Under the pieces are notes generated by a model. It did not search any database. It was not told where the DNA came from and saw only the letters and a program-made list of their open reading frames with translations. This document shows positions 3,850 through 17,179 of a DNA stretch of 21,642 bases, in pieces. How positions within the stretch are numbered: position 1 is the stretch's first letter; each line of letters begins with the position of its first letter. The translations under genes were made by a program, and so were the position numbers. The DNA is taken from positions 1 to 21,642 of the IMG/VR virus record IMGVR_UViG_3300035698_020554; one strand, 5' to 3'. Source of the stretch: a virus.

Positions 3850-4668
3850 ATGCGTATTATTGGTGCTATTTTCGTGATTTTGACGACCGCGAGCCTTGTC
3901 GCCTGCGATGAGACAACGCCCGACAAACAGGCACCGGCGGAGATAACCATTACTGGGGTGAATACCAAAGTTGAGACCGACGCGGTCGCTGAGGCCTTCC
4001 GGATTTTTAAAGATCAGTGCCCAAAACTTTTCACAGAATACTGGACGGACGTAGTCTCTGCAGAGGGCGAATTGAAACCGATGGTCAAAGATGTGGGCAA
4101 TGATCTGGCCATCAAATTTCCAATGGCGAAGGCGTACGGATGGAGCCAAAGTCTTCAACTTCGTATCCGTATGAGTGACGCGCCGTCGGCTATACCCGCA
4201 AGTGTGGGCGCAGCTTTTCAAACGCTTTTCTTCGATCTTGGCGGTGGTAGATCGCCTGGTATCTTTGCATTCAAGGATGCCTCTGCAAAAGTTTGTGAGT
4301 TTAAAAAACAATCGGCAAAAGGAGCCTTTCATCCAGTCGAAGCTTTGACCGTCTTGGACACGGACCCGCGTTTGCTTCAGCTCGTTGAGGCAACTGACAA
4401 TAATGCCGAAACATGGCAAGCCGCGTCCGGCAATATTTGGTCCGGAGTCAAACTCTACTTTGGTCCTCATAAACGATACGTTGGTGAGGTCGTCGGTGGT
4501 ACCGATAGAGAAAGCCTGACCAGTGGCGAATTGACGAGAGGCGTCGTCGTTAAAATGGCCGGTGAAACGCTTGAATGGAAAAATCGCGATGCGATCGTCC
4601 TCGGGGCCTGGTACATCCGCCGAGATGACCCCGCTCTCAATCGGCAGCAATGGCGCACGATCAATTAA
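3850..4668 (+). CDS. Predicted lipoprotein, moron gene in the tail operon
   Basis: The 272-aa protein begins with a clear lipoprotein signal peptide: MR, a hydrophobic run (IIGAIFVILTTAS), then lipobox LVAC with Cys19. Asp at position +2 after the Cys is an inner-membrane retention signal in enterics; whether that applies here is unknown. The mature part has no motif I recognise. It includes a Cys-containing segment (DQCPKLFTEYW), a Gly-rich stretch (DLGGGRSPG) and a C-terminal beta-like region ending LGAWYIRRDDP. It lies opposite to every neighbour, between the tape measure and gpN, where Mu-like phages normally have nothing. It is also visibly richer in A and T than the flanking genes. This is the pattern of a moron, often a superinfection-exclusion or lysogenic-conversion gene, though that role is inference. 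Confidence 0.8.
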   Translation: MRIIGAIFVILTTASLVACDETTPDKQAPAEITITGVNTKVETDAVAEAFRIFKDQCPKLFTEYWTDVVSAEGELKPMVKDVGNDLAIKFPMAKAYGWSQSLQLRIRMSDAPSAIPASVGAAFQTLFFDLGGGRSPGIFAFKDASAKVCEFKKQSAKGAFHPVEALTVLDTDPRLLQLVEATDNNAETWQAASGNIWSGVKLYFGPHKRYVGEVVGGTDRESLTSGELTRGVVVKMAGETLEWKNRDAIVLGAWYIRRDDPALNRQQWRTIN

Positions 4669-11675: not shown

Positions 11676-11767
11676 TTAGAGGATTTCAACGGCGACGCCG
11701 GCGGCGTCGACCGAGACGATCTTGCCGGCCACCGAACGGCTGGCTGAATCACCATGTCGTGTTAAGC
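11676..11767 (-). pseudogene. Terminase 3' end (RHGD motif) fused to the tail of a lost gene
   Basis: Read from the inversion edge, the minus strand gives R-LTRHGDSA and then SRSVAGKIVSVDAAGVAVEI with stop TAA 11678-11676. RHGD is the third nuclease motif of Mu gp28-type terminases, normally followed by AIALAL-type sequence. Here the conserved part ends after RHGDSA. The remaining 20 or so residues do not fit a terminase and look like the C-terminus of whatever gene once preceded gpT. The portal, gpF-like and protease genes expected between them are gone, so a deletion junction lies at about 11736-11745. Confidence 0.7.
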
Positions 11768-12351
11768 GATCGAAGCCAACATGGTCGACGTGCCGGTTTT
11801 GCGCTGGGCATGCGAAGATGGTTTTGCGTTAAAGGATGCAAGCATCCGGACCGCCGAAGCTCGAGACTGGTTTGAAGCAAACGTTCTCGAACATCTGGAA
11901 GCCCTGGCGCCGGACCTCCCCTCATTCTTTGGCGAAGATTTCGGCCGTGTGTCAGACCTTACGGTGATATGGCCACTGCAGCTGGCGCAGAATATGAAGC
12001 GCAAAACGCCGTTCACGATCGAGCTGCGCAATGTGCCGTTCGAACAACAGCGCCAGATTTTATTCTGGACGGTCAGCTTGTTGCCGAGGTTTCAGCGCGG
12101 CGCCATGGATGCCGGGGGCAACGGTGCCTACCTGGCTGAGGTCGCGTGGCAGAAATTCGGTGAGCGCCGCATAGAAAAAATAAGCCTGTCGCGTGGCTGG
12201 TACCAAGACAATATGCCACCGTTCGTCGCCGCGTTCGAAGATCGCGCCATCGACCTGCCGCGTGACCGGGACACCATGGATGACCTTCGCTCGCTGCGAG
12301 AAATCGGCGGCGTGATCCAAGTGCCGACATTGCGCACGAAAGGGTCGGATC
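11768..12351 (+). pseudogene. Inverted central segment of the terminase large subunit (nuclease domain)
   Basis: The plus strand encodes ANMVDVPVLRWACEDGFALK, FFGEDFGRVSDLTVIWPLQL, ELRNVPFEQQRQILFW and RGAMDAGGNGAYLAEVAWQK. These are unmistakable Mu gp28-type terminase nuclease-domain blocks carrying the first two metal-binding acidic motifs (GEDFG and AMDAGGNG). The rest of the same gene is on the minus strand to both sides. The segment is bounded by GATC at 11768-11771 and 12348-12351. Turned around, it continues the upstream piece (TRSLI then EANM) and runs into the downstream RHGD motif (KGSD then RLTRHGD), all in one frame. The apparent extension of this frame to 12401 is antisense of the upstream piece. 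Confidence 0.88.
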
Positions 12352-12932
12352 AGGGAGCGGGTCAGTGGCTGACCGCCGCCGCGGCGGGGCACGCAGAATA
12401 GCTCTTCCTGGGCCGCATCGCCATAGAAGTCGATAACTTCCTGTCGCCATTTTACCTGCGCCTGTTCAGACCAGTCTTTGCCGGTGACCAGACAAATTCG
12501 ATTGTAAAGGCCGTCGGCCAGAGCTTGGTCAAGGTCGATGCGTAAAACTTCGCCGGCACGCTTCTTGGCCCGGATCTCACCGATCAGTTCGTTGAACGGG
12601 TTTTCTGCCCCATCGTGGGTGGATACAACGCAGACCTTTCCGCCCCAGATCAGCAATGCCATAGCTGCTTTTAACAGCTCCTCCAAGTCGTCATGGAAGG
12701 CGGCCTCGTCAATGATCACGAAGCCCTGGCGACCGCGCAGCGAGCGTGGCTTCGATGACAGCGCCATGATCTCGTAGCCACTCGCAAACGTGATCCGGAA
12801 AGCCTTAATGTGTTGATCAGGGTCTTTGCCGTCTTCAAACATAAACTCCTGGATTTCGCCTGCGGCCTCGTTAAACGACTTCGCCCACATGCCGGCGGTG
12901 TCGATAAACTCTCGTGCCATGTCCAGGTTGAC
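12348..12932 (-). pseudogene. Terminase large subunit, ATPase part without N-terminus
   Basis: The minus strand carries DMAREFIDTAGMWAKSFNEA, GFVIIDEAAFHDDLEELL (Walker B) and VCVVSTHDGAENPFNELIGE (coupling motif), then ELFCVP and LTRSLI, where homology stops at the inversion edge. The residues that should come before (the Walker A-like KSRQIG region, about 80-100 aa) are missing. Five codons upstream of the first ATG there is an in-frame TAA that ends the truncated gene before it. The open frame continues to 12060 only as antisense of the inverted piece. DNA packaging by this protein is not possible as arranged. Confidence 0.88.
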
Positions 12933-13049
12933 TTACGTTTTTATCGCATCTCTGAGCAGGCTCTCGTTGATCTGGTAATTAGAATTATCCAGAAGCGTTC
13001 TTAGCGTCGTCAATCGCAGGTGTTGGTTTTCATGTTCTTTATAACTCAT
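12933..13049 (-). pseudogene. VpaChn25_0724-type phage protein, truncated after 38 codons
   Basis: From ATG 13049-13047 the frame reads SYKEHENQHLRLTTLRTLLD, then SNYQINESLLRDAIKT and TAA. This matches the N-terminal half of the roughly 90-aa small winged-helix proteins that sit before gp27 in Mu-like phages (L-R-x-LL...Y-x-x-NE-x-LL...AL). The second half, usually beginning YGH and ending with WLEEQGL, is missing. The next bases belong to the terminase, so a deletion has removed the rest of this gene, the DUF3486 gene and the terminase start. The family call is from memory of its pattern. Confidence 0.65.
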
Positions 13050-13056
13050 GACAATC

Positions 13057-13386
13057 TCACTTTTTGTGCAGGTACTCGTCCATGCGCGCCATCCACTCTT
13101 TCAGGCTGCCCATCAATTCACGCACGCCGCTTAGGTCTTTCCGCATCTCTCGAATATCGCCGTCGATTTTTAAAATAGCTGTTCCAGTCGGCAAGGCATC
13201 GACCTTGGAATCCAATGTGTCGAGGCGTTGATGTGCGTGTTGCGAAAGTTTGGCGAGTCGGGCCACCTCATCCGCGAGTTGCGACTTTTTGGCCTCTGCC
13301 ATTACCTTCCGCGACCAACGCACCGTCCAAATCAAGCTCAATAGCGCGATGATGGGTGATGCGATAATGGCTACCAGGCAGCTTTT
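13057..13386 (-). pseudogene. DUF2730 (Mu gp25-like) protein lacking its own start
   Basis: The frame encodes a membrane helix (LVAIIASPIIALLSLIWTV), then a basic WSRK and a long coiled coil (LADEVARLAKLSQHAHQRLD through the C-terminal EWMARMDEYLHKK). This is the DUF2730 layout in Mu-like phages. The helix is complete but no ATG or plausible ribosome-binding site precedes it: upstream the frame merges into DUF3310 sequence and meets TGA at 13389-13387. Only TTG 13341 inside the helix could start translation. The 5' end was probably removed in the deletion that also truncated DUF3310. Confidence 0.65.
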
Positions 13387-13637: not shown

Positions 13638-13955
13638 CTAATCCTCAGACTTGATAGTTTTTTTGTCTGTCGGTTCTATCGCGCTCAGCCGTACCCGGCC
13701 CAACACCGTGACGATCGCAGACAACGTGGTGTCATAGATCAGGCGCACGCGGTCGCCTGAGCCGAGGCGTACGCGGAGCCGATAACGATGCTGTCCCTGA
13801 CGCACAAACGCGGGGCGCATGCGGTCGATCCGGACGGCCAAACTTTCAATCTCGAGGTGTGACATCGGCACGCCGCGTTCCCGCGCCCGCTTGTGGGTGT
13901 GCAACCCGCAATGGCAGCGCCAGGTAACAAAAGACAAAGGCGACATCGAGCCCAT
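13638..13955 (-). CDS. Small basic hypothetical protein
   Basis: The 105-aa ORF starts at ATG overlapping the gp16 stop (TGATG), supporting translational coupling. I do not recognise the family. The N-terminal 30 residues contain a Cys-His cluster (WRCHCGLHTHKRARERG). From MSHLEIESLAVRIDRM (alternative ATG 13865) it looks like a compact beta-rich domain (HRYRLRVRLGSGDRVRLIYD, IVTVLGRVRLSAIEP). At this position Mu encodes the Mor activator, but no Mor-like helix-turn-helix is visible. Confidence 0.55.
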   Translation of the reverse strand: MGSMSPLSFVTWRCHCGLHTHKRARERGVPMSHLEIESLAVRIDRMRPAFVRQGQHRYRLRVRLGSGDRVRLIYDTTLSAIVTVLGRVRLSAIEPTDKKTIKSED

Positions 13956-14720: not shown

Positions 14721-14818
14721 CGCAGCAAGCGCTGAAGATCGGCCTCGATCTGGCCGCGGTGGCGCGCAGGATGATTGAGCGGCGTGAAGCCGAAGCGCAC
14801 GCCCAGGCGGAGGGCTAA
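14721..14818 (+). pseudogene. Orphan C-terminal coding fragment at the island edge
   Basis: The frame CCGCAGCAAGCG onward encodes PQQALKIGLDLAAVARRMIE followed by RREAEAHAQAEG and TAA. Its codons are strongly GC-ending, and it is followed after two bases by the ATG of the next plus-strand gene, as in an operon. There is no start codon and the upstream bases belong to gp16 on the other strand. It looks like the 3' end of a gene whose front is elsewhere, possibly the DnaA-like gene at 16.4-16.9 kb. Confidence 0.4.
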
Positions 14819-14820
14819 AG

Positions 14821-15072
14821 ATGTCGACCCCGACCACCCGCGAACGAGAGTTGGAGCGCGCATTGAACGACGTGATGCTGGCCGCCGCTTCGTTTGCGTT
14901 CGGTCGGGGCATGTCTGAAGCGCGGCAAAACCTTAAAGACGCGATCCACCAAGGCAACGCAACGCTCACCAGCAAACCGTGTGAACGCGCGCCGGATTTG
15001 CGCGAGCTCGCAGAACGCGCAGACGCCGCCAGGGCCGCGCAACCCGGCTTTAGGAAAGACACAGATGGCTAA
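14821..15072 (+). CDS. Small helical hypothetical protein
   Basis: The 83-aa ORF begins STPTTRERELERALNDVMLA and is predicted largely helical with many Arg, Glu and Ala residues. It also has RGMSEARQNLKDAIHQGNAT and a single Cys. I do not recognise it. Its stop overlaps the methyltransferase start (ATGGCTAA), which supports real, coupled translation. It is on the plus strand inside the flipped island. Confidence 0.6.
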   Translation: MSTPTTRERELERALNDVMLAAASFAFGRGMSEARQNLKDAIHQGNATLTSKPCERAPDLRELAERADAARAAQPGFRKDTDG

Positions 15073-15451
15073 AAAATGGTTTTTCGATCCGTTGATCCCC
15101 TACAAGTACGACGTCATCAACGCCGATCCGCCGACGCATTTCAAAACCTTCTCGGCCTTTGAATCCGAGAAAGGCGCGCAGTATCCAACCATGGACGATA
15201 CCTGGCTACGCGCTTTGCCGGTGCAGCAGCTCGCATCCTCGAACTGCCTATTGTGGCTCTGGACGACGATGCCGAAATTGCAAGTGTCGATCGACCTAAT
15301 GGCAGTGTGGGGCTTTCGGTTTGTCACGGCCGGCGCCTGGCACAAGAAGACCCCCAAGGGTAATACGGCGAAGGGAACCGGCTTTGTGCTGCAGTCGGCG
15401 GCCGAGGTTTACCTGATTGGTGCCATCGGCCGTCCAGCGTACCGCAGCTAG
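15065..15451 (+). pseudogene. MT-A70 family adenine methyltransferase, truncated and with altered catalytic motif
   Basis: The 128-aa product follows the MT-A70 pattern: YDVINADPPTHFKTFSAFES, QYPTMDDTWLRALPVQQLAS, CLLWLWTTMPKLQVS, VWGFRFVTAGAWHKK and GFVLQSAAEVYLIGAIGRP. These enzymes methylate N6 of adenine in DNA or RNA; in phages they may protect against restriction. Two features argue against activity. The catalytic DPPW reads DPPT. The chain stops at YRS just after GRP, whereas family members continue about 50-60 residues through a REHSRKPDE-type segment and a final domain. The downstream bases do not contain it in any frame. Probably a decayed gene. Confidence 0.75.
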
Positions 15452-15482: not shown

Positions 15483-15584
15483 ATGTTGCTGGCTGACTTC
15501 GATCTCAGGTTCTGCCCTCAGTGCAGCAAGTTACGCAAACGCCAATACGGCATCGATCCCAGATACGAAGGTGCAGCGATATGA
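15483..15584 (+). CDS. 33-aa Cys-containing mini-protein or gene remnant
   Basis: ATG 15483 opens a 33-codon frame containing LRFCPQCSKLRKRQYG, a zinc-knuckle half (C-x2-C) followed by basic residues, and ends GAAI. Full treble-clef or HNH-like phage mini-proteins carry a second Cys pair, missing here. The stop overlaps the start of the next tiny ORF (ATGA). It may be the 3' remnant of a larger gene, because the frame stays open upstream past the methyltransferase stop. Confidence 0.35.
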   Translation: MLLADFDLRFCPQCSKLRKRQYGIDPRYEGAAI

Positions 15585-15676
15585 CCCGCCGAAATCAACT
15601 TATCCACGCGATCCGCCAGCAGCTGCGCTGGTGGCAAACAATGCTCAAACCACAGTTAAAAGGATATCTAAAATGA
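15581..15676 (+). CDS. 31-aa basic peptide coupled to DUF3164
   Basis: This tiny frame starts in an ATGA overlap with the previous ORF and ends in an ATGA overlap with DUF3164. It encodes TRRNQLIHAIRQQLRWWQTM followed by LKPQLKGYLK. It is basic and amphipathic, with two adjacent Trp. The double coupling is the main evidence. It may be a leader peptide whose translation delivers ribosomes to DUF3164, or a fortuitous frame. Confidence 0.35.
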   Translation: MTRRNQLIHAIRQQLRWWQTMLKPQLKGYLK

Positions 15677-16320
15677 GCGATACGATGATCCCTGAAGGCT
15701 ATGCCAAAGACGCCAAAGGCCGCCTTGTTCCTGAAAACCTGATCAAGCCACAAGAGCGGCTGGAAGATCAAACCGTGCGTACGATTATCGACTACGCACG
15801 TGATCTCAGCGCGCAGATCGCACGGTTCCGCGGTCACACGTTTGATGATGTTGCCACGTTCATGGATACGCTCGGCGAGCAATATGGTGCGACCAAAGGC
15901 GGTGCCAAAGGCAACGTCACGCTAAGCAGTTTTGACGGCTGCTTAAAGGTCACCGTGCAAGTGCAGGACACGCTCACTTTCGGTCCTGAGCTGCAGGTCG
16001 CTAAGGAGTTGTTCGACGCGTGTATCTCTGAATGGTCCGAGGGCGCCGATGATAAAATTCAGGCGCTCGTCTCGCATGCGTTCCAGGTCGACAAGGAAGG
16101 CAAAATAAATCGGGAAGCGCTGTTCGGCTTGCGCCGCCTCGACATCAACGACGACGGTTGGCGCAATGCGGTCGCGGCGCTCAACGATTCGATCCGTATT
16201 CAGGGCTCAAAACAATACGTGCGGTTTTACGAGCGCACCACGCCCGAAGAAAAATGGCGCCCGATCTCGATCGATATTGCCAATGCTGGTGAAGCATCCC
16301 GCAACGCGGAGGCCGCGTAA
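15673..16320 (+). CDS. DUF3164 protein (Mu-like early protein)
   Basis: The 215-aa protein matches DUF3164, sometimes labelled sulfate transporter-like without basis, an early gene of Mu-like phages. Visible blocks are IPEGYAKDAKGRLVPENLIK, QTVRTIIDYARDLSAQIARF, KGGAKGNVTLSSFDGCLKVT, then LPKLQVA-like GPELQVAKELFDACISEW, and C-terminal LRRLDINDDGWRNAVAALND and EKWRPISIDIA. Function is not known; it is often next to Gam and gp16. The start at 15673 has AAAAGGA eleven bases upstream; a longer frame to 15571 overlaps the tiny ORFs. It is complete but on the opposite strand to the rest of the early genes. Confidence 0.88.
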   Translation: MSDTMIPEGYAKDAKGRLVPENLIKPQERLEDQTVRTIIDYARDLSAQIARFRGHTFDDVATFMDTLGEQYGATKGGAKGNVTLSSFDGCLKVTVQVQDTLTFGPELQVAKELFDACISEWSEGADDKIQALVSHAFQVDKEGKINREALFGLRRLDINDDGWRNAVAALNDSIRIQGSKQYVRFYERTTPEEKWRPISIDIANAGEASRNAEAA

Positions 16321-16535
16321 TGTACGCCGAACAACGCCACGTCGGCGGGTCTTGGGTGCAAGAGATCGAAGGCCGGGCCGCCATCACCACCGAGACACCG
16401 AAGACGAATAAAAAGGTGTCGCCGGAACCGCTCGCCAACATGGAAGCTCTGAAACGACTTGCGGCAGTCGCTATCCAGGCAAGATCGGATGACAAATTTC
16501 GGCTCGTCTTTGCTTGGGCGCTTTATGCTGAATGA
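16320..16535 (+). CDS. Uncertain 71-aa ORF at the right edge of the flipped island
   Basis: The ATG overlaps the DUF3164 stop (TAATG). The ORF reads MYAEQRHVGGSWVQEI, a Thr/Lys/Pro-rich middle and MEALKRLAAVAIQARSDDKF to ALYAE. It is antisense to the C-terminal part of the DnaA-like gene, where a Cys/Phe/Ser/Gly pattern looks native, so probably only the first part belongs to this strand. I infer that its first 16 codons may be the displaced start of gp16. It may instead be an intact small gene of unknown function. Confidence 0.35.
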   Translation: MYAEQRHVGGSWVQEIEGRAAITTETPKTNKKVSPEPLANMEALKRLAAVAIQARSDDKFRLVFAWALYAE

Positions 16536-16889
16536 GACCGGTTTTGGTACCGCGGCGATGGTCGGTGTGGAATCACTGACCGTGCGTTTCGGCAGTGCGG
16601 CGACCTTTACGGTCAGATCATTGATAAGTTCATCAATCACCGCGTCGGTTTCACGCAACACGGTGATCGATCGCACGCCATGAAGAACCGTCGTATGATC
16701 GCGACCGTTCAAGAATCGGGCAATTGCGGGAAATGATTTCTGCGTATGTGCGCGCGCCAGAAACATAAAGATTTGGCGGTAGCGGACGAGCGGACGAGCT
16801 CGGCTAGAACCTTTGAGCCGTTCCGCAGTCATACCGGTCTGCGCTGCGACCAAGTTCAGAATATCGGTCATAGAGACATCGACGGTCAT
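16413..16889 (-). CDS. DnaA domain IV-like DNA-binding protein, 3' end unclear
   Basis: ATG 16889 overlaps the upstream stop (ATGA). Residues 5-80 follow DnaA domain IV: TDILNLVAAQTGMTAERLKG, RPLVRYRQIFMFLARAHTQK, FPAIARFLNGRDHTTVLHGV and RSI. The GRDHTTVLH box is the DnaA-box recognition helix, so this is a sequence-specific DNA-binding protein without the ATPase domain. It could recruit or block replication or regulate early genes. Around residue 137 a motif C-LDSD-C-RKSFQSFHVGER looks like the first half of a zinc ribbon; its second Cys pair is absent. The open frame continues to 16227 but over antisense of plus-strand genes, so the native 3' end is probably displaced. Confidence 0.7.
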
Positions 16890-17179
16890 GCGGCGTCTCC
16901 ACCATCCGGGTTGAGTGGTAGCAACTCGACCCCTTGGCCTTTCAGCCATTCCTTCATCGCGATGCGGCCACGCTCTTTGACGAAGTCCACGACGTCGGCG
17001 TTGCGATGCGCACTGCCGTCGATCAGCCGACACGGCTGGCCTTCGATGATTTCAAGGTCCTGGATTGCCGACCGTAAAATGGCGCACACGGACGCGAGCC
17101 CGCCCGGCGTCATTTGGACGCCATTTGGGCCAAAGCTCTCGAGCTTTACGAGGAGACTGCGAAGATCGTCACTGACCAT
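16886..17179 (-). CDS. Small hypothetical early protein
   Basis: The 97-aa protein starts at ATG 17179, two bases after the previous stop and behind GGAGGGAAG. The sequence is VSDDLRSLLVKLESFGPNGV, then a helical middle (GLASVCAILRSAIQDLEIIE), HRNADVVDFVKERGRIAMKE and ends NPDGGDAA. No family is recognised. It is sandwiched between two DNA-binding proteins with overlapping or near-touching ends, so it is part of the same early operon. Confidence 0.65.
   Translation of the reverse strand: MVSDDLRSLLVKLESFGPNGVQMTPGGLASVCAILRSAIQDLEIIEGQPCRLIDGSAHRNADVVDFVKERGRIAMKEWLKGQGVELLPLNPDGGDAA

Follow-up and report, generated by a model that had tools for sequence, protein, structure and literature searches.

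The window analyzed here is the complete linear viral record IMGVR_UViG_3300035698_020554 (21,642 bases), whose gene content identifies it as a predicted Mu-like (transposable) phage with genes mostly on the minus strand. It encodes a repressor-like gene, a MuA transposase (rve and Mu-transpos_C domains), a MuB-like ATPase and GemA, the hallmarks of transposable phages, together with a terminase fragment and, in the customary Mu-type head and tail order, the genes for the major head protein, sheath, tube, tape measure and baseplate. Outside 11.7-16.4 kb the genes checked gave full or near-full-length matches to relatives or family models, and neither frameshifts nor stops were seen in them. 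Between the tape measure and baseplate genes, positions 3850-4668 of the plus strand hold a 272-aa ORF with a lipoprotein-like start (MRIIGAIFVILTTASLVAC); it gave no match in PHROGs or Pfam and could be a cargo gene. An early gene at 16548-17033 carries a DnaA C-terminal DNA-binding domain (Pfam Bac_DnaA_C), as is also found in several Mu-like relatives, and a 105-aa ORF adjoining GemA (13641-13955) is without a PHROG match. The features of the region between 11.7 and 16.4 kb are collected in Table 1.

Table 1. Predicted features of the rearranged region, in window positions.
Feature	Position	Strand	Evidence and remarks
Tail of phrog_1731 virion protein gene, fused behind terminase piece	11682..11744	-	phrog_1731 profile 109-134 of 135; L002 gene 9726-10505
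Deletion join, terminase to phrog_1731 gene tail	11741..11749		4,919 L002 bases absent; exact base uncertain
Terminase C-terminal short piece, RLTRHGDSA	11745..11767	-	aligns with RMLRHGDSA of L002
Inverted block, terminase nuclease part	11768..12351	+	flip restores frame; 76-77% identity to L002 terminase residues 279-473; GATC at both edges
Terminase ATPase part (Walker B), without N-terminus	12352..12930	-	phrog_2 E 3e-12; 73-74% identity to L002
Deletion join, gp26-like gene to terminase	12926..12934		38 phrog_436 codons upstream; 85 terminase codons absent; exact base uncertain
Deletion join, DUF3310-like to DUF2730-like gene	13370..13376		both genes truncated at junction (~13373); exact base uncertain
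Third inverted block, truncated MT-A70 gene	14730..15448	+	MT-A70 shares GemA strand in 11/11 relatives; approximate edges
Second inverted block, DUF3164	15508..16429	+	edges GGTTC / GAACC; DUF3164 shares MuA strand in 62/62 relatives; 5-nt inverted microhomology

Translation of the minus strand follows the terminase ATPase part, with VIIDE as Walker B, as far as ...GGGQPLTRSLI and enters an unrelated frame beyond. The nuclease part is read from the plus strand of the adjoining block (EANMVDVPVLRW...RTKGSD), and the minus strand below 11768 continues with RLTRHGDSA. Reverse-complementing 11768-12351 brings all three parts into one stop-free frame. The inversion is flush at both edges with zero sequence loss, and GATC stands at 11768-11771 and at 12348-12351. 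A 584-bp in-place inversion breaks the large terminase gene of this contig. An earlier note on this DNA had claimed just such an inversion between two GATC sites, and the claim is borne out by the continuity of the flipped frame and by the uninterrupted gene of the closest relative found, IMGVR_UViG_3300010430_000385 (L002; 77% identity in the nuclease part and 75% in the major head protein). The L002 terminase (536 aa) lies on one strand in the expected order and reads through both join points (...TRALIEACQVEVPVFRW...RTKGSDRMLRHGDSA...). Against one strand of L002, blastn aligned window positions 12348-12930 in minus and 11919-12349 in plus orientation.

The translated flipped sequence was searched against terminase families and matched phrog_2 with an E value of 2.4e-17, compared with 3.1e-12 for the minus-strand ORF alone; the score for Pfam Terminase_6N stayed under its cut-off, and solved structures gave no sequence match for the terminase. 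The read-through protein is matched nearly over its full length by 80 genome loci. Only after flipping 11768-12351 do the acidic motifs of the nuclease stand in order, D247 and D304 followed by HGD. Both aspartates, which lie in the block, are invariant in 92 full-length homologues, all of which also have the H-x-D motif near the C-terminus and the Walker B D71 with the following acidic E72. The phrog_2 match, the VIIDE Walker B and these nuclease motifs support the assignment to Mu gp28-type large terminases, with which the window copy also shares its place between gp26/27-like and head genes; unlike these, it is split by an inversion and lacks both ends. Walker A is absent, since the missing 85 N-terminal codons include the stretch SRRIGMTWA of L002, which we read as a putative Walker A; a simple Walker A pattern matched just 42 of the 92 homologues. 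Compared with L002, the terminase has a pN of 0.15 and a near-saturated pS of 0.75, and for the inverted part, which was under clear past selection, the values are 0.17 and 0.73. Gradual decay is not seen, given the terminase values and the full or near-full-length genes outside the cluster.

Two genuine genes on opposite strands, in place of one split gene, would also account for two ORFs that are both open and start with ATG. The relatives refute this reading and leave it a negligible probability: in all of the 105 loci taken from the viral and genome collections, the ATPase and nuclease parts, each homologous to one of the two ORFs, belong to the same protein and share a strand. The flipped frame, moreover, runs without interruption. 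Accordingly, the inverted order was seen in no relative found (0 opposite-strand cases in the 105 loci). An exact-match search of viral_contigs for the left-junction 30-mer, with the window's own record left out, returned 0 matches, and no sister contig, whether in the same or in the normal order, turned up in viral_contigs or genome_contigs. When gap-free alignment was tested at the two join points, homologues proved to carry indels near both.

The flip joins the three parts in one frame, as claimed, yet it does not yield the whole gene. RLTRHGDSA covers only the beginning of the terminase C-terminal part. At SRSVAGK the frame passes into phrog_1731, which makes the restored frame a fusion, and the sequence after RHGDSA, SRSVAGKIVSVDAAGVAVEIL, is the tail of this other head gene. 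RLTRHGDSA...VEIL as a full terminase C-terminus was ruled out on this ground. The L002 bases absent at this join, judging by position and size, should be those that hold the portal, a head protein and the protease, and L002, with its complete and uninverted terminase, has the ~4.9 kb of following genes. At the other end, the 38 codons of the gp26-like gene run into NLDMAREF, and the terminase N-terminus is 85 codons short of that of L002. The window terminase is not functional as it stands. A further deletion joins two genes that match phrog_236 and phrog_736, which from their sequence we take to be DUF3310-like and DUF2730-like, respectively. The deletion joins and the edges of the third block are placed within about 5-20 bases; this imprecision arises because the collections searched hold no close sister sequence.

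Two more inverted blocks follow. DUF3164 and MT-A70, found here on the plus strand, share the MuA or GemA strand in every relative that carries them (62 to 0, 92 to 0 and 11 to 0). The order of DUF3164, MT-A70 and GemA is that of several relatives and the strands alone differ, so that two blocks were apparently flipped in place. A single large inversion of 14.7-16.4 kb is less simple for the same reason, and this is not certain, as the position of MT-A70 varies among relatives. The MT-A70-type DNA methyltransferase gene stops at 15448, ~80 residues shorter than its homologues, and one edge of the third block must therefore have lost sequence. Flipping the DUF3164 block gives the DnaA-C-like gene a tail, C-x4-C...SFQSFHVGERFCPQC, that resembles the four-cysteine tail CLRCREAFPSAHIGNRLCVGC of L140 (weakly, E 0.06-0.1). 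The earlier note had seen one clean scar in the terminase. This does not hold, because both ends of the gene are deleted and, over the next 4 kb, a further deletion and two more inverted blocks are found. Altogether, a minimum of three inverted blocks and three deletion joins fall within 11.7-16.4 kb; some nine joins, of which three are direct deletions, are packed into 4.7 kb.

The edges of the inverted blocks share inverted microhomology, 4 nt (GATC) at the terminase block and 5 nt (GGTTC) at the DUF3164 block. When breakpoint pairs were drawn at random from the window, 2.1% of trials reached 4 nt and 0.7% reached 5 nt. The DUF3164 edges were picked by eye, partly from the microhomology itself, which makes the 5-nt figure the less independent of the two. 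Together, the two microhomologies favour joins made by strand annealing. GATC occurs 193 times in the window, once per 112 bases, and at this frequency a chance 4-nt microhomology is a better reading than a recognised site. This density, the three further sites inside the terminase block and the different edges of the second block led us to reject any special role for GATC, including that of a restriction footprint. A proximity-ligation mark, GATCGATC, was likewise rejected: it occurs twice, and by our own estimate from site density ~1.7 occurrences are predicted.

An invertible DNA switch that toggles the terminase by flipping 11768-12351 would fit the flush edges of this segment and the frame restored across both of them. 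Like invertons and other phase-variable DNA inversions, the segment is short and inverted. Unlike these, its inverted repeat has just 4 nt in place of a long one, the repeats of 4-5 nt differ from block to block, and there is no sign of switching. Moreover, the terminase lacks its N- and C-terminus in either orientation, and relatives show a single orientation. We consider a switch very improbable. A literature search for such inversions in bacteria gave no useful result.

The most likely reading is a non-functional rearrangement made by microhomology, a one-off broken or chimeric copy and no new genetic device. The 3' end or broken end of one strand may have paired with the nearby opposite strand at 4-5 nt of inverted microhomology, and extension or joining of the paired end would have produced the two measurable inversions. 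The cluster probably formed all at once and not in a working phage, while the DNA was amplified or made into a library or the reads were assembled, and would have neither a function nor a way of switching back. In multiple displacement amplification, 85% of chimeras are inversions, mostly of segments <10 kb apart, and most have complementary ends of 2-21 nt; joins arise about once per 22 kb, and direct joins of <10 kb are rare (11/475) (PMC1855051). The window resembles such chimeras in its nearby inverted segments and in the few complementary bases, 4 and 5 nt, at the inverted joins. It differs from them in that one inversion is flush at both edges, the joins are denser and direct deletions are present. 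A deletion at the inverted join is absent from the terminase block with its exact edges, and the MT-A70 block did lose sequence. A single amplification chimera leaves one inverted join plus a deletion. The flush terminase inversion, in which nothing was lost, would need the same site pair twice, and this counts against an amplification chimera. Scaffolding errors would not explain the microhomology, another point against this origin.

The chief rival reading is a real defective phage or prophage, in which the head-packaging and early regions were broken and rejoined in the cell via short microhomologies, leaving the terminase dead. An inversion exact at both edges is expected of two double-strand breaks with reversed rejoining, direct deletions are rare among amplification chimeras, and the contig is one continuous consensus. 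Against this, none of the joins is present in any relative found, and some nine joins without point decay, that is, without a frameshift or stop in the other genes checked, are a poor fit to slow prophage decay and would require a single shattering event. Such an event in the cell, with several pieces from packaging and early operons flipped in place and rejoined via 4-5 nt of inverted microhomology, seems unlikely to us, while a defective phage or prophage in general is a possibility that we hold at somewhat less than even. On balance we lean, with limited confidence, towards an in-vitro or assembly chimera as the origin of the contig arrangement. The rearranged order is known from this one contig.

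Should single molecules be shown to carry the arrangement, they would exemplify a phage genome that was shattered and rejoined without point decay. For viral contigs more generally, annotation can list a pair of opposing ORFs in place of a single rearranged gene, and comparing gene order with relatives can reveal several such joins in a single record.
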